A program made the translations under genes and the position numbers. The notes below the pieces were generated by a model that did no database searches, was not told the DNA's origin, and worked only from the letters and a program-made list of their open reading frames with translations. Shown in pieces: positions 8,366 to 63,926 of a DNA stretch of 64,000 nucleotides (position 1 is its first letter; each line of letters opens with the position of its first letter). Source of the stretch: Defluviitaleaceae bacterium (lineage in GTDB: Bacteria > Bacillota > Clostridia > Lachnospirales > WQUN01); NCBI GenBank assembly GCA_009780185.1, contig WRAN01000006.1:62001-126000 (forward strand). The letters run 5' to 3'.

Positions 8366-9724
8366 TTATCGTACTTGTACAACTGTTTCGGAAGTCCCTA
8401 CCTCTATAACTCGTGTTACTGGTGCCCTTAGCTCTCTGCGTGAGACGATTTCCGGGTCTCCCACCTGTTGGCCGTTTATTCGCATTATGCGTTTTGTAAC
8501 TTCTTGTTGGCCGTAACTGCCTTCCGTGATTATATTGGAAGCAGATACATGCATATTCGAGTTTTCTCTTGTTTCTATTTCCATAGGTATATCTTCAAGC
8601 ATTCTTATTTCTTCTATAGTTCGTACAGTAAGCCGTGGCCTGGTGGTTTCTATTAATATTGTTGAGCCGGTTCGTATGATGTCATCTACTGTAATATTAT
8701 TAAGGCGGCCTAGACTTTCGAGGGTGGTACCAAATTCGATTGCTAAACTGCCCTGGGTATCGCCTGGTCTTATTGTATGTTCTATTACATCGCTGACGGG
8801 TCGCTCAAGCAGTTGAATTACGTCGCTTGGATTATCCAACTCATCTTGGTCAACAAGTGCAGGCCTTATTTGCCATCCTTCTTCAAAGCTAGAATCTATC
8901 GTAGTTTCATCGTCAACATACGGGCGCTTAAGCTCAGCGGCAACATGGTCAGCATCAGATTCGTTGCGAAGCACTGCGATACGCTCACCGTCGATATAGA
9001 TAGCCGCTCCTACAATACGATAAGTAAATTGCTGGCTTAGCCGTACAATCATTTCGGGAGCCGCAACTATCTCACCCCTGCGGGCTCGGGCAGTGTCAAT
9101 AACTGTTTCTTCATTGACTTGAATCTGTGCACCTAGTGACTCAGATAAATGCCTAACCGCATCTTCATGGACAGTGTGAGTTTCCACTTCCCGGTTTATG
9201 GGCATATACCCAACAAATCTATCATCTACATACACAGCCCAGGCATTATGCCTAAGCATACTCATAAGTGCTAGTACAATAAATGCAACCGCAATGAGTC
9301 CTAGCGCCCAAAATCTAAGCACTCTTTTTGCACCAGGAGGGATTAAGGGTTCTTTTGCCTGAGGCGGATTATATAACCTGTCTCCTTGGCCTAGACGGGG
9401 CTTTTGCGACCCTGCCTGCTTCCGTGTTGGCTTTTTCTTTTCAGGTTTTGGCTGACGTGGCCGTTTTTGACCGTAGGCTTTTTGAGCGGATTTGTAAAAG
9501 CCTGTTGATTGTTTTTGAGGTTCATCTTTTTCTGATTTGTGGTGCTTTGTTTGTTCGCTTCGTCCGTCTGGCGGAGCATAATCGTAATGAGAATGGCGGT
9601 CATCTGTTTCAGGCTCATGCAAACGGCGTTGTTTTTTTCCCTGTTGCTTTGGTGGCAAATCAAGGACAATGGGTTTTGGAAGTTGCCTGAGACCTTCAGA
9701 GTCAGGATTATGTGGTCTGGGCAT
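8366..9724 (-). CDS. LysM and G5 domain membrane protein heading the wal operon
   Basis: The 452-residue protein has three parts. The first 130 residues are a basic, Pro/Gln/Lys-rich cytoplasmic tail. One transmembrane helix follows (VLRFWALGLIAVAFIVLAL). Outside is a long region with a LysM repeat (HTIRPGDTQGSLAIEFGTTL, about 305-350) and a C-terminal G5 domain (RTIEEIRMLEDIPMEI..., about 355-452). Related clostridial proteins continue into an M23 endopeptidase domain, which is absent here although the stop is clean. It probably binds peptidoglycan. Being first in the walRK operon, it may report wall state or be a WalR target. GGAGGT precedes the ATG as part of a repeat element. Confidence 0.8.
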   Translation of the reverse strand: MPRPHNPDSEGLRQLPKPIVLDLPPKQQGKKQRRLHEPETDDRHSHYDYAPPDGRSEQTKHHKSEKDEPQKQSTGFYKSAQKAYGQKRPRQPKPEKKKPTRKQAGSQKPRLGQGDRLYNPPQAKEPLIPPGAKRVLRFWALGLIAVAFIVLALMSMLRHNAWAVYVDDRFVGYMPINREVETHTVHEDAVRHLSESLGAQIQVNEETVIDTARARRGEIVAAPEMIVRLSQQFTYRIVGAAIYIDGERIAVLRNESDADHVAAELKRPYVDDETTIDSSFEEGWQIRPALVDQDELDNPSDVIQLLERPVSDVIEHTIRPGDTQGSLAIEFGTTLESLGRLNNITVDDIIRTGSTILIETTRPRLTVRTIEEIRMLEDIPMEIETRENSNMHVSASNIITEGSYGQQEVTKRIMRINGQQVGDPEIVSRRELRAPVTRVIEVGTSETVVQVR

Positions 9725-9731
9725 ATCGGCA

Positions 9732-9831
9732 CCTCCTTTTAAATGAGGGCTTTGCCCTCAAGCTCCCGCCGCTTCGCGAGGCTAAGCCCCACTCCGCTTC
9801 CTCGCTTCGCTGCGGGGTCGTGCTTTGCACG
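9732..9831 (-). repeat. Hairpin/RBS repeat element, full-length copy 1
   Basis: Read on the - strand the element starts with CGTGCaaaGCACG and continues CCCCGCAGC...AGCGAGGAAGC. It then passes through GGCGGGAGCTTGAGGGC and closes with the hairpin GAGGGCaaaGCCCTC fused to ATTTAAAAGGAGGT, which is the ribosome-binding site of the LysM/G5 gene. It aligns over its whole length with 56464-56563. It begins just after the ispE stop. Confidence 0.8.
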
Positions 9832-9843
9832 GCTTGCGTTGGT

Positions 9844-22436: not shown

Positions 22437-22462
22437 GAGGGCGGGGCCCTCATTGAAAGGGG
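22437..22462 (+). repeat. Hairpin/RBS repeat, short copy before uppP
   Basis: GAGGGCgggGCCCTC (22437-22451) is followed by ATTGAAAGGGG, the uppP ribosome-binding site. This matches the 3' end of the elements at 9732-9831 and 56464-56563. Confidence 0.75.
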
Positions 22463-22468
22463 ATACAG

Positions 22469-23266
22469 ATGAGTATTTTTGAAGCGATTATTTTAGGTAT
22501 AGTACAAGGTATTTCAGAGTTTTTGCCCATTAGCTCCTCTGGGCATTTGATTTTACTTCATCAGTTTTTTGGCATAGATAAAGGTGCATTCACTTTTGAC
22601 ATCGTAGTGCATCTAGGGACTTTAGTGGCTGTAATTATTTATTTCAGGCACGATATTTGGGCTTTGATAAAAAATCCATTCCAGAAACTCACAGGGCTTT
22701 TGATTATCGGTACCATCCCTGCGGTAATCGCCGGGTTCTTTTTGCGCAATGTTATTGAGGATAATTTTCGCACAGGAATATGGCTGGCTGCCGCTTTTAC
22801 CCTTACAGGTGTACTTTTATTGATTGCAGACCGTTTGACCAAAGGCAAAAAGGAAGAGCGGGATATTACATGGTTTGATGCATTGTTTATCGGTTGCTGT
22901 CAGGCACTTGCCATCCCTCCTGGTATTTCTCGCTCAGGCACTACAATCACCGGAGGCTTAGCCCGCGGCCTTAACCGGGAAACAGCAGCGCGTTTTTCAT
23001 TCCTGCTGGCTATTATTGCAATATTCGGGGCAGGAGTGCTTGAGGCGTATCAAGAAATCTCTCGCGGTGCTGAGGCAAATATTGCCGCAATTGGTGTGAT
23101 GCCTATAATTGTAGGTTTTGTTGTCGCTTTGGTGGTGGGGTATTTAAGTATTGGTCTGTTGCTGAAGCTTCTCAAAGCCTGCAATCTTAAATATTTTTCA
23201 TTTTACCTATGGGGTTTAGCGTTGTTACTTTTTGCGGATTGGATGATATTTAACCGTTTCTTTTAA
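22469..23266 (+). CDS. uppP: Undecaprenyl-diphosphate phosphatase (BacA/UppP)
   Basis: 265-residue membrane enzyme that recycles the lipid carrier of wall synthesis and gives low-level bacitracin resistance. The catalytic motifs are visible: GISEFLPISSSGHL near the N terminus and PPGISRSGTTITGG at about residues 149-162. Full length with about eight helices. It precedes ylmC by 10 bp on the same strand. Confidence 0.96.
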   Translation: MSIFEAIILGIVQGISEFLPISSSGHLILLHQFFGIDKGAFTFDIVVHLGTLVAVIIYFRHDIWALIKNPFQKLTGLLIIGTIPAVIAGFFLRNVIEDNFRTGIWLAAAFTLTGVLLLIADRLTKGKKEERDITWFDALFIGCCQALAIPPGISRSGTTITGGLARGLNRETAARFSFLLAIIAIFGAGVLEAYQEISRGAEANIAAIGVMPIIVGFVVALVVGYLSIGLLLKLLKACNLKYFSFYLWGLALLLFADWMIFNRFF

Positions 23267-43312: not shown

Positions 43313-44290
43313 TTATACCATACGTCCGGGATAGGCGTTAAGCTCCATCCCGTCTGAAATACCATCTTTTAGACGATAGTATCCTCTGGAGGCAATCATA
43401 GCAGCGTTGTCTGTACAGTAAATCGGCTGTGGCATAAAAAACGGAAGCCCTTTTAATCTACAAGCCTCTTCCATACTCTTGCGCAACCCTTTATTACAAG
43501 CTACACCCCCAGCCATCGCTACCTGTTTATATCCTAACTCATCACAAGCCTTTAAAGTCTTGCCAACTAATACATCCACCACAGCCTGCTGAAAAGAAGC
43601 CGCAATATCCTCTATAGGAAGTTGCAAGCGATTAATTACATCTCTTGTGGCTGTTTTAAGCCCACTAAAGCTAAAATCAAACCCATCAACCCTAGCTCTG
43701 GGAAAATGATGCGCTTCCGGATTCCCAGTCATAGCAAGCTTATCAATTTTAGGCCCACCGGGATACCCAAGCTCAAGAAGCCGCGCAACCTTATCAAAGG
43801 CCTCTCCGGCGGCATCGTCTCTTGTACTGCCTATAACCCGGTAGCTATCATAATCATCCACCGCAAGTATAACTGTATGCCCGCCGCTAACCACCAGGCA
43901 TAAAAAAGGCGGCTCTAAGCCGCTATCTAGATAATTAGCGCAAACATGCCCCTCAATGTGATGCACACCAACGAGGGGCTTCTTATTTACATATGCCAAT
44001 CCCTTTGCGTAGTTCAAACCAACCAACAATGCTCCAGCAAGACCAGGGCCATTGGCAACGGCATATCCGTCGATATCAGTCAATTTCACTCTCGCTTCTT
44101 TAATGGCACTATTCACTATAAATCCAATTGACTCGATATGCTGCCTGGCGGCAAGCTCCGGTACTACCCCGCCAAAAGGGGCATGAAGTTCTACTTGAGA
44201 CGCAATTATATTAGAAAGAACAAGCCGCCCGTCTTTTACGACAGAGGCGGCGGTTTCGTCACAGCTTGTTTCTATTCCCAGTACAATCAT
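43313..44290 (-). CDS. tsaD: tRNA N6-adenosine threonylcarbamoyltransferase
   Basis: 325 residues. With TsaB, TsaC and TsaE it makes t6A37 in ANN-decoding tRNAs. It begins VLGIETSCDETAASVV, has ASQVELHAPFGGVVPELAARQH and the iron-binding VGVHHIEGHVCAN. LVVSGGHT and the late YCTDNAAMIASRGYYRL follow. Full length. The ATG overlaps the anti-sigma factor stop by 4 nt, an unusual partnership. Confidence 0.97.
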   Translation of the reverse strand: MIVLGIETSCDETAASVVKDGRLVLSNIIASQVELHAPFGGVVPELAARQHIESIGFIVNSAIKEARVKLTDIDGYAVANGPGLAGALLVGLNYAKGLAYVNKKPLVGVHHIEGHVCANYLDSGLEPPFLCLVVSGGHTVILAVDDYDSYRVIGSTRDDAAGEAFDKVARLLELGYPGGPKIDKLAMTGNPEAHHFPRARVDGFDFSFSGLKTATRDVINRLQLPIEDIAASFQQAVVDVLVGKTLKACDELGYKQVAMAGGVACNKGLRKSMEEACRLKGLPFFMPQPIYCTDNAAMIASRGYYRLKDGISDGMELNAYPGRMV

Positions 44291-44820
44291 GCTTTGGTGC
44301 TCTTTTCTGAGCGCTGTAAAATCACAAGAAGCGCCCCAACTACAGCCACAAAAATGATAGCAACATTAACCATTGCAAACTCAGATCCTTGGAAATATGC
44401 GGTTAAATCCGCAAGCCATTCGGTTATATAAACCTGTGCACTGCCCATAGCAGCCATTGCGCTATATACAGCAGGAGACGCGGTAGTCAGAGCTGTAAGC
44501 CATGCGGGATTAAATGCAAATAACAATGCAATTCCTAAGAAAATGGCACCAAGTCCCCAGATAATCCGCATCGACATAGGTATAGGCTTCGAATGTACCG
44601 GCATCTTTCGTACTGCTTCCATTACATTGGCGGTAAAGTCAATTGGTGGCACGCTAAGCTCCGCGTCATCCAGTACCTCAAGAGCCATATCAAAACCTAT
44701 ATAATATTCTCGGCAATCTTCACATTCCAGCACATGGAGTGCCAGTTCTTTTGCACTTGCAGGATGGATAGTTTTTTCCATATGCTCCATCATTGCCAAT
44801 TGTGCTTTATTGCAGTCCAT
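44287..44820 (-). CDS. Anti-sigma factor with zinc-binding N terminus
   Basis: 177 residues. The N-terminal ZAS-type motif His-x3-Cys-x2-Cys is seen as ALHVLECEDCREYY. Two hydrophobic segments follow (MRIIWGLGAIFLGIALLFAF and MVNVAIIFVAVVGALLVIL). The protein would hold the ECF sigma factor encoded just upstream at the membrane. AGGAGG precedes the ATG. The 117-bp gap to the sigma gene contains a direct repeat. Confidence 0.88.
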   Translation of the reverse strand: MDCNKAQLAMMEHMEKTIHPASAKELALHVLECEDCREYYIGFDMALEVLDDAELSVPPIDFTANVMEAVRKMPVHSKPIPMSMRIIWGLGAIFLGIALLFAFNPAWLTALTTASPAVYSAMAAMGSAQVYITEWLADLTAYFQGSEFAMVNVAIIFVAVVGALLVILQRSEKSTKA

Positions 44821-44835
44821 AATTACCTCCTAATC

Positions 44836-44931
44836 AATGAGCAAAAATCGCGATGCTTTTACGTGTTTTTGTGAATGTTTTTTGCCGTTAGGCAAAAAGA
44901 TTTCATATAATGAGCAAAAATCGCGATGCTT
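44836..44931. repeat. 23-bp direct repeat flanking a small hairpin
   Basis: Identical copies of a 23-bp sequence beginning AATGAGCAAAAATCGCGATG lie at 44836-44858 and 44909-44931, 73 bp apart. Between them TTTTTTGCC-GTTA-GGCAAAAAGA forms a hairpin. The copies lie between the sigma and anti-sigma genes; the left copy ends just before the anti-sigma ribosome-binding site. Confidence 0.85.
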
Positions 44932-44936
44932 CTAAA

Positions 44937-45500
44937 TTAAGTTCTAGCTTCAATCAGGCCTTTAAGTAGCTTCCGGCCGCGAAAAATTCTGTTTTTGACC
45001 TTAGAAAGTGGCTCCCCAGTCCTGTCAGAAATCTCCTGATAGCTAAGCCCTTCTTGGTGATACAGCACTACAGGAACCTTATACATATCAGGAAGCTCGG
45101 CCACGATTTTATTAATCCTGGCGGTCTGCTCCCGCTTAATATAGATATTTTCTGGAGATGAAACAGTACCACCACTAAACCCAGTATCAGTCATATGGGC
45201 TTCAAGGGATATAGTGTCTAACTTCTTCTTCCGGTGATGGTCAATTACATGGTTACTGGTAATCCGCATGATCCACGTAGAAAATCTAAAAGCCGAGGTA
45301 TACGACTTTAGATTTTTATACACTTTAAGAAACACATCTTGAGCCAGATCACTGGCTTCATCGTTGTCTTTTGTCATACGCAAGATAATGGAATAGACTA
45401 GATTTTTATAGCGGTTTACAAGCTCTGTAAAGCACTCTTGATCTCCGGCTAGGCAAGCTTCGATTAGCTCCATATCGGTTCTGATATCTTTTTCGACCAT
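44937..45500 (-). CDS. ECF RNA polymerase sigma factor (SigW-like)
   Basis: 187 residues. Region 2 reads LVYSIILRMTKDNDEASDLAQDVFLKVYKNL and FRFSTWIMRITSNHVIDHHRKK. Region 4 reads LPDMYKVPVVLYHQEGLSYQEISDRTGEPLSKVKNRIFRGRKLL. No extra C-terminal domain. It is followed by its predicted anti-sigma factor, as usual for ECF systems that answer envelope stress. AAGGGG precedes the ATG. I see no clear ECF autoregulatory promoter (AAC...CGTC) in the short gap to rnz. Confidence 0.93.
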   Translation of the reverse strand: MVEKDIRTDMELIEACLAGDQECFTELVNRYKNLVYSIILRMTKDNDEASDLAQDVFLKVYKNLKSYTSAFRFSTWIMRITSNHVIDHHRKKKLDTISLEAHMTDTGFSGGTVSSPENIYIKREQTARINKIVAELPDMYKVPVVLYHQEGLSYQEISDRTGEPLSKVKNRIFRGRKLLKGLIEART

Positions 45501-54569: not shown

Positions 54570-54605
54570 GGGCGGCGGGGTCAGAGCCCTATTCTTAATG
54601 AAAGG
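54570..54605 (+). repeat. Hairpin/RBS repeat, variant copy before the first permease
   Basis: GGGCGGCGGGGTCAGAGCCC, then TATTCTTAATGAAAGG. It aligns with the 3' half of the 56464-56563 element but has lost several bases of the hairpin. AAAGG is the ribosome-binding site of the permease gene at 54615. Confidence 0.55.
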
Positions 54606-54614
54606 TTGTGCTGT

Positions 54615-55559
54615 ATGGAACAAGCATCAACCAAGCCAGCAGTCAGCGCACGGTTACGGAACTATGGCCTTCAAATGTGGAAAGCTCGTTTCATTTACCT
54701 GCTCGCGTTGCCTGGGATTGTATACTTGGCTATTTTCCAATACGGGCCTATGTACGGGGTACTTATGGCCTTCCAAAACTTCCGTCCACGTGACGGTATC
54801 ATGGGAAGCCAGTGGGTAGGCCTTGCCAACTTCCAACGCTTCTTTGATCATCCTCATTTCTGGCGGCTGATTTCAAATACGGTAATCCTTAATGTGTACC
54901 AGCTTTTATTTGTATTCCCTCTTCCTATAATCTTTGCCCTTCTACTTAACGAGCTTAGAGGAAAACGCTTTAAGAAAACCGTCCAGACAGTCAGCTATCT
55001 TCCTAATTTTATCTCCATGCCTGCCATCATAGGTATGATGATAATGTTCGTATCTCCAACAGACGGTTTTGTTAATCGTATAATCGTGAGCCTAGGTGGC
55101 GAAGCCGTTCACTTTATGGCCCGCCCAGAATGGTTCCGCCCGCTGTTCATAATCTCAGAAATATGGACGACTTTAGGTTGGGCTGCCATCATTTATATTG
55201 CAGCATTAGCCGGGGTAAACCCTGAATTATATGAAAGCGCGGTAATAGACGGTGCCAGCCGCCTTAAAATGATGCGGCATATCTCCATACCTTCAATTGC
55301 CCCTACAATTATCATTCTCTTCCTATTAAATGTAGGTACTATTATGAGTCTGGGACATGAAAAGGCGCTTCTGATGCAAAATTCTCTTAACCTGGAAACA
55401 GGGGAGATTATCAGTACCTTTGTATTTAGGCGAGGGCTTGAGTCTCTAGATTACAGTTTTGCAACTGCTGTTCAGTTCTTTAACTCCATAATAAACATCG
55501 CAATATTGACCATTGCCAACACAATAAGCCGACGTGTTTCAGAAACCAGTCTGTGGTAG
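54615..55559 (+). CDS. LplB/YtcP-family ABC sugar permease, subunit 1
   Basis: 314 residues with six helices. The start at ATG 54615 is chosen by AAAGG 9 nt upstream; the frame to 54483 would start ahead of the promoter. The cytoplasmic EAA loop is YESAVIDGASRLKMMRHISIPS. The N terminus (KARFIYLLALPGIVYLAIFQYGPMYG) is typical of LplB, part of a family importing oligosaccharides such as pectin or alginate fragments. It is followed after 12 bp by the second permease. Confidence 0.92.
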   Translation: MEQASTKPAVSARLRNYGLQMWKARFIYLLALPGIVYLAIFQYGPMYGVLMAFQNFRPRDGIMGSQWVGLANFQRFFDHPHFWRLISNTVILNVYQLLFVFPLPIIFALLLNELRGKRFKKTVQTVSYLPNFISMPAIIGMMIMFVSPTDGFVNRIIVSLGGEAVHFMARPEWFRPLFIISEIWTTLGWAAIIYIAALAGVNPELYESAVIDGASRLKMMRHISIPSIAPTIIILFLLNVGTIMSLGHEKALLMQNSLNLETGEIISTFVFRRGLESLDYSFATAVQFFNSIINIAILTIANTISRRVSETSLW

Positions 55560-55571
55560 GAGGAGGATATT

Positions 55572-56465
55572 ATGGTTAGGGATAAAAGCATTTCCTCCAT
55601 GCTAATGGACGTAATTATCCATATTATTATGATTTTTGTGCTAGTAGTAACTATCTATCCTGTGCTTCATGTATTAGCTTCTAGTTTAAGCGGGCGTATT
55701 GCTAATGAAGCAGGTTTGGTGAGTTTTTACCCGGTAGATTTTACTGTTGAAGCTTATGTAATGATTTGGCAAGCCGGGACGGTTCCTAATGCATTTGTCA
55801 ACTCTGTGCAGTATACGGCAGTTGGGGTTTTGATACAGATGTTGGTGACTACCTCTTTTGCCTATGCGCTTTCACGCAAAGGTGTGCCGCTTAGGGGCTT
55901 CCTTACCTTCTTTGCAATTTTCACTATGTATTTCTCTGGTGGTATGATTCCTACGTTTATGTTGGTTAGGAATCTTAACCTGCTTGGCACGATGTGGGCG
56001 CTGGTACTTCCTCCTGCTATGGGTATCACCAATATGATAATCATGCGCACATTCTTCCAAAACCTCCCTGCGGAGCTTGAGGAAAGCGCGAGGCTGGACG
56101 GAGCCAACGACCTTACTATTTTCTTTAGAATTATCCTGCCACTTTCCAAGGCTGTGCTTTATACAATCGGGTTATTCTACGCGGTTGGGCACTGGAACTC
56201 CTGGTTCCCAGCTATGATTTACCTCAGAGACCCGGATATGTTCCCGTTGCAGCTTATTCTTCGCCAGATTGTAGTACTTGCCGGAGATATCCGTGACGCT
56301 GCTATGACAGGGGAGCTGCACGCTGTTGGCTTCCTTGGGCAGATAAATGTAATTGCGATACGCTACGCTGTTGTATGTATTGCCATAGTACCAATGTTGA
56401 TCATATATCCCTTTGTGCAAAGGCACTTTATTAAGGGTGTAATGATAGGATCATTAAAAGGCTGA
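55572..56465 (+). CDS. LplC/YtcP-family ABC sugar permease, subunit 2
   Basis: 297 residues, six helices. The EAA loop is LEESARLDGANDLTIFFRIILP. The early YPVLHVLASSLSG and the ending YPFVQRHFIKGVMIGSLKG are hallmarks of this CUT1 subfamily. GGAGGAGG precedes the ATG. It pairs with the preceding permease. No ATPase gene lies in the cluster, as usual for systems that share a common MsmK/UgpC-type ATPase. The stop codon is overlapped by the next repeat element. Confidence 0.93.
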   Translation: MVRDKSISSMLMDVIIHIIMIFVLVVTIYPVLHVLASSLSGRIANEAGLVSFYPVDFTVEAYVMIWQAGTVPNAFVNSVQYTAVGVLIQMLVTTSFAYALSRKGVPLRGFLTFFAIFTMYFSGGMIPTFMLVRNLNLLGTMWALVLPPAMGITNMIIMRTFFQNLPAELEESARLDGANDLTIFFRIILPLSKAVLYTIGLFYAVGHWNSWFPAMIYLRDPDMFPLQLILRQIVVLAGDIRDAAMTGELHAVGFLGQINVIAIRYAVVCIAIVPMLIIYPFVQRHFIKGVMIGSLKG

Positions 56466-56563
56466 TCGCGCAAGGCGCGATCCCGCAGCACAGCGAGGAA
56501 GCCCTGACGGGCTTTGCCCGGCTGGGCGGCGGGGCTTGGGGCAGCGCCCCATTAAAAAGGAGG
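56464..56563 (+). repeat. Hairpin/RBS repeat element, full-length copy 2
   Basis: It starts GATCGCGCaagGCGCGATC (56464-56482), continues CCCGCAGC..AGCGAGGAAGC and GGGCGGCGGGGCTTG. It ends GGGGCagcGCCCC (56538-56550) with ATTAAAAAGGAGG, the ribosome-binding site of the binding-protein gene. It aligns with 9732-9831 read on the - strand. Confidence 0.82.
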
Positions 56564-56570
56564 ATTCACC

Positions 56571-58280
56571 ATGAAACGTATTTTTACATTGGTGTCACTA
56601 GTGGTACTTGCTGGTTTGCTTATTGGCTTACTATCAGCATGTAACAGCGAAGAAGACACCCAAGCCCCTGTTGCAACCCCAACACCAGAACAGCAGCAGC
56701 AAGACCAAGCCGATGCCACTGACAACGGCCCAGAAGTAGACGAACCTGTAGTACACGAAGGCCCCAACGGCCCCAACGGCCATCTTGCCGACTGGTCAAA
56801 TATCGACCTTAGCGAGCAAGTAACCATCACCATCACCCGCCGTGGCGGCCCTCGCGATGTTTCTCAAGAGAACATGTGGGCAGAGTTTATGCTGGAGAAC
56901 TTCAACGCCATTCTTGACGTGACAGATATCTCCAACGCGGACTATGTAACCCGTATGAACTTAATGTTCGCAGCCGGTGAAGCCGATGACGTATCTATTG
57001 CTCACCGTCCAGACTTTATGCTCAACGACTGGATTGAAGCTGGATACCTTCGTGGATTCACCTATGAAGATACTCTTCGCTTCCTGCCAAATTTTGTTGA
57101 TCACTTTGCAGATGGCAGATTCCCAGTAGTATGGGCCAGCAATGTTCACTCTGATGGTCTTATCTACCGCTTCCCAGGCCGCCGTGCTCAAGACCTTAAC
57201 ATGACCTGGATGTACCGTGCAGATATCTTTGAAGAGCTGGACCTAGCCTTCCCATACACCACAGATGATCTCTTTGATGTGCTTGTGCAGCTTAGGGACC
57301 ACACAGGCATGTATCCAATCGTAGAAGCCGACCCAGATACAGCGATTTGGGCCTTTGCAGGCTGGCTTCAAGCCTTTGGTATGCCCGAACTTGCCGCTCG
57401 TGATATCTCAATGGTAGACCCACGCACCGGCGAATTCATTCCTTTTATCTTCACAACCGATATGTACCGCGATGTGCTTAGTTTCCTTAATCGCCTATTC
57501 GAAGAAGGTCTAATGTGGCCAGAATTTGCAACAGGCACAGCAGAACAACGTGACAGCCTTATGGCTCGCGGTCATCGTCATGTAATCTGGGGCTGGCCAG
57601 AGCAAATTCCAACCCAGCTTAACGAACTATCCCAAACAGATAATCCAGACGCCCGTTGGGAATGGTCACGTGACATGATCACCGCCGACCCAGCAACAGG
57701 CCACTTCTTTAAAATGGATCCATTCTTCGCAGCGGACGGCGTAGGCTTTAACGCAGACGCTTCTGACATTGCAGTAGAGCGCTTCCTATATATCCTCAAC
57801 TGGCTATACTCAGATGAAGGTATGCGCTTCACCACCTTCGGAATCGAAGGCGTACACCATGAAGTTCAAGGCACCTACTATCGTTTCCTCGACCATATGA
57901 ACTCCCCAATCCGTGCTGCAGGGCATCAACTAATGCACTATGGTTGGGTGGTACTTGGTACCCCGCATCATCACAACCAAAACAACTTCTACCGTCCAAT
58001 CATGGTAGAACTGGCCGAAACTTTTGTAGGCCGCCCCAATTACTACTATCATGTAGCCCCAATCATCCACTTTACAGCCGACGAAACCAGAGATCTTGCC
58101 GATATCCAAACCCTTCTAAACCAAACCAGAGACACCTACTTTGCAAGATTTGTAATGGGTCATGTAGATATCAACGACGATACAGCATGGGCAAACTATA
58201 TCAACACAATGAACCAACTGGGCTTAGAGCGCGCAATTGAAATCCGCACAGAAGCCTTTAACCGTACACCACAGCCATAG
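56571..58280 (+). CDS. LplA-family extracellular sugar-binding lipoprotein
   Basis: 569 residues. The signal peptide ends in lipobox LLSACNSEE with the lipid-modified Cys at about 24. A Gln/Pro/Thr-rich linker follows, then a large family-1-type binding domain (ITITRRGGPRDV..., MWAEFMLENFNAILDV, NMTWMYRADIFEELDL). It delivers oligosaccharides to the two permeases. Its placement after both permease genes, instead of before them, and the strong ribosome-binding site in a repeat element are notable. Confidence 0.92.
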   Translation: MKRIFTLVSLVVLAGLLIGLLSACNSEEDTQAPVATPTPEQQQQDQADATDNGPEVDEPVVHEGPNGPNGHLADWSNIDLSEQVTITITRRGGPRDVSQENMWAEFMLENFNAILDVTDISNADYVTRMNLMFAAGEADDVSIAHRPDFMLNDWIEAGYLRGFTYEDTLRFLPNFVDHFADGRFPVVWASNVHSDGLIYRFPGRRAQDLNMTWMYRADIFEELDLAFPYTTDDLFDVLVQLRDHTGMYPIVEADPDTAIWAFAGWLQAFGMPELAARDISMVDPRTGEFIPFIFTTDMYRDVLSFLNRLFEEGLMWPEFATGTAEQRDSLMARGHRHVIWGWPEQIPTQLNELSQTDNPDARWEWSRDMITADPATGHFFKMDPFFAADGVGFNADASDIAVERFLYILNWLYSDEGMRFTTFGIEGVHHEVQGTYYRFLDHMNSPIRAAGHQLMHYGWVVLGTPHHHNQNNFYRPIMVELAETFVGRPNYYYHVAPIIHFTADETRDLADIQTLLNQTRDTYFARFVMGHVDINDDTAWANYINTMNQLGLERAIEIRTEAFNRTPQP

Positions 58281-58292
58281 GCGGTAAAAACC

Positions 58293-58372
58293 ATGGGGCT
58301 CTGCCCCATACCCCGCAAGCTTTTGAAAAAGCTTGATCAAAACTTTAAAAGGAGCCGCGCTTTGCGCGGCTC
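58293..58372. repeat. Hairpin cluster related to the hairpin/RBS family, after the binding-protein gene
   Basis: It holds ATGGGGctctgCCCCAT (58293-58308), AAGCTTTTgaAAAAGCTT (58317-58334), and ACTTTAAAAGGAG (58342-58354) ahead of GAGCCGCGCtttGCGCGGCTC. The TTTAAAAGGAG tail matches the repeat family, but no gene follows it. Confidence 0.6.
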
Positions 58373-58397: not shown

Positions 58398-58510
58398 ATA
58401 CCGATTCCAAATTAAAACCTGTCTGACAGAGCGGCGGCTTGAAACGCGAAATAAGCGTTTCAAGTAGTTTTGCTGCGATAGGCAGATAGGATTTTAATTG
58501 GAATCGGTAT
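58398..58510. mobile_element. 113-bp palindromic element, MITE-like
   Basis: Terminal arms ATACCGATTCCAAATTAAAA and the near-complement ending GGAATCGGTAT enclose CCTGTCTG/CAGATAGG. The inner hairpin is CTTGAAACGC-GAAATAA-GCGTTTCAAG (58438-58464). The core is shared with 25752-25797. Almost the whole unit can fold on itself. No protein is encoded. Outside, TCAAATTTT and AAAATTGA extend the symmetry. Confidence 0.7.
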
Positions 58511-62638: not shown

Positions 62639-62662
62639 GGGCAGCGCCCTCATTTAAAAGGA
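62639..62662 (+). repeat. Hairpin/RBS repeat, short copy before the GTPase gene
   Basis: GGGCagcGCCC (62639-62649) is followed by TCATTTAAAAGGAG, the ribosome-binding site of the next gene. Same sequence order as at 9732, 22437 and 56538. Confidence 0.75.
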
Positions 62663-62669
62663 GTTTCTA

Positions 62670-63926
62670 ATGGGATTATTTAAAAAGAAAAAACTAGCCA
62701 TAGAAAAGGCCAAAATAGAAAAAACCCACGAAATCATATGCTTGTACTGCTTCCGTAACTTCAACCACGATAGGGTACTCTTTCGTGCTGTAAGCGCCAT
62801 CGACTCGGAGGGTTATCGTGCTGCGATAGATCATCCGTTAGACGAATATCGTGCCCGCTTTTTTATGGGTTCGCTAGGGGAGCTTCCAGTAGTATTGGAC
62901 CCAGACGAAGTAGGAGAGGCAAATAAAGGTTATCTGCGTGGTATTCTCTCCTCATTAAAAGATAGCCATGGCAACACCTCAACTAAGCGTCTATGTCCTT
63001 ATTGCCATAACGATGTGCCCGCCATTGCGGGCTTTGCACCCAGTACGATAATCTCAATAATAGGCGCCCCCGGTGCAGGGAAATCCGTATACCTAACCAG
63101 TCTAATCCACACATTAAAATCCGTAACTTCCCATAATTTTGATGTGTTTTGCACCCCAATATCCAACGAAATGGGACGCAAGTTCAAATTCGAATACGAA
63201 GACCCACTGTTGGATACCGGATATTTGGCAGACTCAACTCAAAAGCAGCAAGAGCCTCTAATCTTTACATTCTCTTTTGCCGATGGCACCAAGCCAGAGA
63301 TAAATATCGCTTTTTTTGATATTGTTGGCGAAGGCAGGGCTAACCTTGAGTACCTGGAAATTTTCGCCGCACATGTGCGCAATTCTTCAGGGGTAATGTT
63401 TATGGTAGACCCGCAGCAATTTCGCCCTATATCCCGCAGAATCCACATGATGAACCAAATGAACTACGATATCGGCGCCTCACGTGAGCCTGCGGAGGTT
63501 TTAAGCACCCTTGTAGAAAACTATATCTATAAACAATCCAATGGTATTTCCAATATCCCCACAGCAGTAGTGCTAACCAAAACCGACCTACTGGAAGCCA
63601 TAAGCTACGAAGGGGATTATATTCGCCCAAGAAGCAATGTGTTTTCCCGCTATACCCATCAAGATCACTTAAATCTAACCCAAACGGATATCGTCAACTA
63701 CGAGATAGATGAATTTATTCAGCGCATTGATCCTAACTTCCGCAATGCCCTGCAGCGACGCTTTGCACATCTTGGGATGTTCGGGGTTTCGTCTGTTGGG
63801 ACTAATCCCGACGCGATTAATCAGCGGTTGGCTCAGTTTGCCCCGGTTAGAGTGGATGAGCCTTTCTTGTGGTTGCTATATAAGCTGGGCTATGTTGAAG
63901 GATTTTATGAAGGTGCGAGACTGTAA
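62670..63926 (+). CDS. Zinc-ribbon P-loop GTPase-like protein (TRAFAC / double-GTPase type)
   Basis: 418 residues, cytoplasmic. Cys pairs CLYC (24-27) and CPYC (109-112) could form a zinc ribbon. A GTPase domain follows: P loop IIGAPGAGKSVYLTSL (131-146), G3-like IAFFDIVGEGR, and G4 TKTDLL. The helix after G3 (NLEYLEIFAAHVRNSSGVMFMVDPQQF) resembles TRAFAC-clade GTPases of the DO-GTPase2 group, some of which have been placed in predicted biological-conflict operons. Function unknown. The stop overlaps the start of a response regulator by 1 nt. Confidence 0.75.
   Translation: MGLFKKKKLAIEKAKIEKTHEIICLYCFRNFNHDRVLFRAVSAIDSEGYRAAIDHPLDEYRARFFMGSLGELPVVLDPDEVGEANKGYLRGILSSLKDSHGNTSTKRLCPYCHNDVPAIAGFAPSTIISIIGAPGAGKSVYLTSLIHTLKSVTSHNFDVFCTPISNEMGRKFKFEYEDPLLDTGYLADSTQKQQEPLIFTFSFADGTKPEINIAFFDIVGEGRANLEYLEIFAAHVRNSSGVMFMVDPQQFRPISRRIHMMNQMNYDIGASREPAEVLSTLVENYIYKQSNGISNIPTAVVLTKTDLLEAISYEGDYIRPRSNVFSRYTHQDHLNLTQTDIVNYEIDEFIQRIDPNFRNALQRRFAHLGMFGVSSVGTNPDAINQRLAQFAPVRVDEPFLWLLYKLGYVEGFYEGARL

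Follow-up and report, generated by a model that had tools for sequence, protein, structure and literature searches.

The 64,000-nucleotide stretch of DNA analysed here (the window) belongs to a Defluviitaleaceae MAG of 2.55 Mb in 31 contigs (G000), which is 84.5% complete. It contains full-length and short copies of a repeated element located just upstream of protein-coding genes, together with a related but distinct repeat (Table 1). The two long copies, which the first-pass annotation had aligned end to end, share 77% identity (E=1.6e-12 genome-wide), far above chance. The short copies, the last of which had been placed at 62639-62662, each consist, as had been described, of the hairpin proximal to the Shine-Dalgarno (SD) sequence followed by an SD-like stretch and then an ATG, located at 54615 for the copy starting at 54570. 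The pattern GGGCNNNGCCC-N1-6-TTNAAAAGGAG was matched 6 times in the window's genome, compared to 0 matches for a reversed control pattern. As forms with internal deletions (P1+P5 and P1+P2+P5) occur elsewhere in G000, the short forms are probably deletion remnants. At its 5' end, the long copy on the forward strand shares bases with the stop codon of the permease gene 55572-56465, and the lipoprotein gene behind it, for which no Pfam match was obtained, comes after two ABC permease genes. Gene identities in the window were assigned using Pfam, and gene names in related genomes were read from N-terminal sequences.

Table 1. Copies of the element, their hairpins and SD sequences, and the related repeat in the window
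Feature	Position (strand)	Context	Basis
Full-length copy (P1-P5, linker, SD)	9732..9833 (-)	before LysM-G5 gene 8366-9724(-)	R1 (102.8 bits, E 4.4e-16; G000:C6:71732-71833) and gene domains
P5 hairpin TGAGGGC-AAA-GCCCTCA	9744..9760 (-)	in copy 9732-9833	sequence and consensus P5
SD AGGAGG	9732..9737 (-)	7 nt ahead of ATG at 9724	sequence
Short form: P5 GAGGGC-GGG-GCCCTC, linker, SD	22437..22462 (+)	before uppP/bacA 22469-23266	
Short form: GGCGGCGGGG (3' arm of P2), P5, linker, weak SD	54570..54605 (+)	before ABC permease	
Full-length copy (P1-P5, linker, SD)	56464..56563 (+)	before lipoprotein gene 56571-58280(+)	R1 (105.9 bits, E 1.2e-16) and ORFs
P5 hairpin GGGGC-AGC-GCCCC	56538..56550 (+)	in copy 56464-56563	sequence and fold
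SD AGGAGG	56558..56563 (+)	7 nt ahead of ATG at 56571	sequence
Related but distinct repeat	58281..58370 (-)	not SD-associated; downstream of 56571-58280	R1, 33.9 bits only
Short form: P5 GGGC-AGC-GCCC, TCATTTAAAAGGAG	62639..62663 (+)	before double-GTPase-like gene 62670-63926	

The element forms a multicopy family. A search of the whole genome with the copy at 56464-56563 identified the other long copy of the window and seven further long ones, and a covariance model, R1, was built from eight copies and takes in the linker and the SD. R1 detected 12-13 full-length copies in G000, 12 of which precede a recognised start codon; the remaining one (L059) lies ahead of an open frame that encodes a membrane protein and has an ambiguous start. 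The genes concerned include those for the ribosomal proteins S4, L17, L28, L19 and S16, an MsmK-like ABC ATPase, an Hsp70-like protein, a LysM-G5 protein and a lipoprotein beside ABC permeases. R1 gave matches in 25 of 61 related genomes; all strong matches, with up to ~46 copies, fell within Defluviitaleaceae. In a named genome collection, an exact pattern was matched solely in Defluviitaleaceae MAGs from termite guts (source study PMC7024585). A second model, R2, which lacks the 3' linker and the ribosome-binding site and stops at P5, matched 10 of the 22 listed Defluviitaleaceae genomes at E 1e-5, and the 174 genomes sampled from the rest of the order gave no match at this threshold; all of the genomes were draft assemblies or incomplete MAGs. 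Viral contigs yielded 34 pattern matches, none of which was recognised by the covariance model, and no phage carriage was seen. Nine copies compared to Rfam 15 gave no relevant match, even at E up to 10, and the element did not reach the Rfam gathering cut-off. The element is short (87-100 bp), has no coding capacity and is present in 12-46 copies in the copy-rich genomes. Within one genome the copies are ~80% alike, with a maximum of 0.86 in G000 and of 0.96 in G023; recent movement is thus not seen in G000.

Occupancy of the sites is polymorphic within the genus. Among 30 Defluviitaleaceae genomes, G000 alone has the element at rpsD and rplQ and G002 alone at rpoA, and the empty orthologous sites, as expected for a mobile repeat, are found in congeners. 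The earlier proposal of a mobile or copied sequence is supported by these differences and by the occurrence of the family in related genomes. Insertion upstream of the Hsp70-like gene of G000 and of two genes of G002 (behind L139 and L133) parts genes that overlap or abut in sister species, and the element in front of groES of G002 has the CIRCE operator on its 5' side and the SD on its 3' side. Only the rplQ site suggests a target-site duplication, a repeat of AAA, and no clear duplication could be defined because the congeners are too diverged.

The position and orientation of the element relative to genes are largely constant. In the R1 set, an open frame begins at most 30 nt away in 92 of 106 copies, a count that is biased because R1 contains the linker and the SD. 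With R2, 33 of 41 copies end 17-48 nt ahead of a start codon preceded by an SD, in sense orientation (23 of 24 in the sister genome G002). The eight exceptions comprise two copies directly before tRNA-Lys, one antisense copy directly after tRNA-Ser, two flush with a start codon (of genes for a 2-oxoacid:ferredoxin oxidoreductase-like and a UvrA-like protein, as read from translations), one copy in a tandem array, one degenerate copy and one copy at a contig end. Across the family, the 80 copies measured have 5-12 nt between SD and ATG. Of the 63 codirectional copies, about 30 are at most 20 nt from the upstream stop codon, which places many of them inside operons and leaves no room for a promoter in the spacer of these ~30. 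In the tandem arrays of G015, an SD is present after the last copy only, and the repeat unit contains the local 5' flank, indicating that these arrays are local duplications.

The sense strand of the element forms five helices: P1, P5 and, between them, P2, which encloses P3 and P4. P3 is a mini-hairpin beside a near-invariant GAGGAA junction. The fold is conserved: in an alignment of 95 copies from five genomes plus one more locus, which was fitted to the model, 24 of 29 pairs had changes on both sides, and 93.5% of cells were paired compared to 79.1% after shuffling and 34-57% in slid controls. The fold also holds in an alignment of 22 copies made from sequence only (15 of 26 pairs, 93.4%). 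On a sequence-only alignment, G.T mismatches outnumber A.C mismatches on the gene-sense strand of P2-P5 (25:7, p=0.002; 109:52 on the fitted alignment), whereas P1 has no such excess (2:9). The excess is indicative of selection at the RNA level, acting on the P2-P5 part of the sense transcript, with strand-biased mutation as a less likely alternative.

Compensatory base changes of this kind are expected of a cis-regulatory RNA, and the element could be a leader whose fold and GAGGAA junction bind a protein or RNA and jointly tune the translation or stability of housekeeping mRNAs, and which spread because it is useful. Besides the strong covariation and the sense-strand G.U bias, the conservation of the junction (93-99% at most positions) is in keeping with such a role, as are the genes that follow, which include those for S4, L17, L28, L19, S16, L6, S12, L10, L20 and L31 as well as rpoA, rpoZ, groES, groEL and clpP. 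Ribosomal-protein genes account for 11 of 100 versus ~2% expected (p about 1e-5, with an assumed background of 55/2500), an excess that would be explicable either by targeting of strong SDs or by a regulatory benefit. However, turnover is high and the same genes are without the element in sister species; a stable association with orthologous genes is lacking, as rpsD, rpoA and rplQ are each filled in 1 of 30 genomes. The target genes are otherwise heterogeneous, and the element is also found before tRNA-Lys and antisense to tRNA-Ser. Furthermore, the SD is predicted to have an accessibility of 0.524 in the presence of the element, of 0.512 behind shuffled elements (p=0.35) and of 0.466 once the element is removed. 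As real and shuffled elements behave alike in this prediction, there is no sign of a tuned switch acting by SD sequestration, and at most a mild insulation may be expected. The shared control proposed in the first-pass annotation is, at the level of translation, possible but unsupported. We consider a regulon unlikely and prefer a tolerated mobile repeat.

To what extent the ribosome-binding site belongs to the element can be judged from 18 filled sites whose orthologue in a congener is empty, one of these "empty" alleles, rpsP of G002, having a P5-like remnant. The manually transcribed SD-to-ATG spacers resemble those of their own empty orthologues (0.48) more than those of other genes (0.21), in 16 of 18 sites (p=4e-5), as for rpmB (filled AGGAGGTTTACTTACC, empty GGAGGTTTACTTATC) and msmK (filled AGGAGGCCATA, empty AGGAGGCCAATA). 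In contrast, the 9 nt preceding the SD resemble other copies of the element and not the host gene (18 sites, p=8e-5), and on the 3' side the copies have in common only the AT-rich linker, about 7-9 nt long, that precedes the SD. The element therefore ends at the SD or a few bases before it. By this sequence comparison, the spacer is shown to be native to the host gene, and the element appears to be seated immediately 5' of the native SD and does not demonstrably bring a ribosome-binding site of its own; the SD core is not assignable to either side, as both would read AGGAGG. The translation-initiation cassette with its own ribosome-binding site, as initially proposed, is thus not supported. 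Such a cassette would carry its SD along and replace that of the host upon insertion or recombination, and the near-fixed distance of the linker and SD from P5 (linker of 7-8 nt in 36 of 80 copies) and the recurrence of variants such as ATTTAAATAGAAAGGAGG ahead of unrelated genes would fit it. It is nevertheless improbable, since the spacer, which should travel with a portable cassette, is host-derived, the gene behind L144 in G002 shares even ATGAAAGGAGG with the empty G001 allele, two SDs are present in none of the filled sites examined, and no SD follows the linker of the tRNA-Lys copies.

Some genes were filled in two genomes: 9 such pairs were observed, whereas 1.7 would be expected if genes were hit at random out of 2500. 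Even so, elements at the same gene resemble each other no more closely than randomly paired copies do (mean percentile 0.53). This suggests repeated independent insertion at the same genes, although concerted evolution between copies could likewise erase the similarity of orthologues. Retention of shared sites by descent finds no support in the similarity of the elements. Two copies lie next to SD-like DNA that is not an SD, one in G002 antisense to the end of tRNA-Ser (GGAGAAGAGGGG) and one in G028 directly before ATGAAAGGG, where, beyond the other end of the element, the sequence AAAGGGGGG-TATAAT resembles the original SD. These two cases suggest that the element is attracted by SD-like DNA and not by SD function. 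The tRNA-Lys cases, in contrast, speak against a simple targeting rule. In two genera (L395 1603-1684 and L405 1419-1500), the mature 5' end of tRNA-Lys comes directly after the element, and at these sites (G028 and G029) an ATTTAAA-type linker is followed by the tRNA without any SD-like motif.

A Y1 (HUH) transposase could also mobilise an ordinary palindromic repeat of REP/BIME or IS200/IS605 origin, which would likewise be intergenic, multicopy and devoid of a clear target-site duplication, but this origin is very improbable, as Y1 is absent from G000, G001, G002, G015 and G023 (incomplete MAGs), is found mostly in genomes without the element (G004, G017 and G026) and coexists with it clearly in G033 alone (one Y1; G016 has Y1 and weak element matches), a distribution that does not fit a mobiliser, and as REPs are predominantly located downstream of genes (PMC3733652), whereas the element lies upstream in one orientation. 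REP/BIME sequences with RAYT/TnpAREP (PMC2817692, PMC3733652) resemble the element as GC-rich intergenic palindromes in many copies; however, they are palindromes of 20-40 bp and not five-helix units located upstream of genes, and the Y1 transposase is missing from four of the five copy-rich element genomes. In its copy number, its shortness and its filled and empty sites, the element agrees with a MITE in the broad sense. The bacterial MITEs and small mobile repeats ERIC, NEMIS/Correia and RUP (reviewed in PMC2229807) are similarly ~100 bp long, non-autonomous and multicopy, with a highly base-paired transcript, and are found next to genes, where they can act on the mRNA. The element differs from them in having no terminal inverted repeat, its end hairpins P1 and P5 being separate and unpaired with each other in the consensus structure, in showing no TA duplication and in its fixed sense orientation a few nucleotides before the SD. 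Ribosomal-protein leaders and other cis-regulatory RNAs of Rfam are also structured 5' leaders of housekeeping genes with covariation, but the element presents one fold before many unrelated genes and its insertion is polymorphic. The IS110/IS1111 elements with their bridge or seek RNA (PMC11187229), which combine a structured RNA with a specific target, are a lead only.

Our preferred reading, to which we assign a probability of roughly 0.6, is that the element is a non-autonomous, RNA-structured mobile repeat placed next to the SD. The repeat would consist of about 87 bp followed by the AT-rich 3' linker of 7-9 nt and would insert directly upstream of the SD core of the host in one orientation, so that the native SD and spacer are kept and the gene stays translatable. 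Its mobility may depend on an enzyme acting in trans, although a search covering Y1 transposases identified no mobilising gene. Its position may reflect a preference for targets close to purine-rich SD-like DNA, combined with selection that spares insertions leaving the SD usable. The RNA fold may be kept as part of the mobilisation, for making the insertion harmless, or both, and the tandem arrays and P5-only forms would be later local duplications and deletions. A literature search for SD-adjacent repeats returned nothing relevant. We tentatively propose that the element may represent an undescribed class of bacterial mobile element, a five-helix RNA-structured unit targeted to SD-like DNA, for which the translation-initiation regions of housekeeping genes would be safe landing sites. 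A family that precedes ribosomal-protein, chaperonin and RNA polymerase genes in a single orientation, with only a few bases between it and the SD, would reveal a placement rule of which no description was found in the papers searched. For the study of translation initiation, it would also offer dozens of naturally occurring gene pairs that differ in the presence of a strong 5' leader fold.

The sequence at 58293-58354, initially taken for a copy without a gene, was misassigned and is part of the related but distinct repeat at 58281-58370, in which AAAAGGAG is differently placed. This repeat is arranged as GGGGCTCTGCCCC-ATACCCCGC-AAGCTTTT..AAAAGCTT-..-GCGC hairpin and comprises a P1-like hairpin, the AAGCTTTT stem and a P5-like hairpin. 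It belongs to a second repeat family of the same genomes (also L064, L065, L066, L067, L069 and L071), characterised by a P1-like GCGC hairpin, an AAGTTT/AAACTT stem and a GGGGCAGAGCCCC hairpin. Both end hairpins are common to this family and the SD-adjacent element; its members are mostly not SD-associated, and in several g2 genomes the repeat is found before rpsD. The window further contains a separate 113-bp MITE-like element (58398-58510) with 28-nt terminal inverted repeats (ATACCGATTCCAAATTAAAACCTGTCTG / CAGATAGGATTTTAATTGGAATCGGTAT), shortly ahead of a gene starting at about 58538, and a 26-nt direct repeat (44836-44861 and 44909-44934, 96% identical and 73 nt apart) between the ORFs 44287-44820 and 44937-45500. 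In G027, a tandem array (L400) is made of units of roughly 60 nt that correspond to the P4-P5 part of the element.
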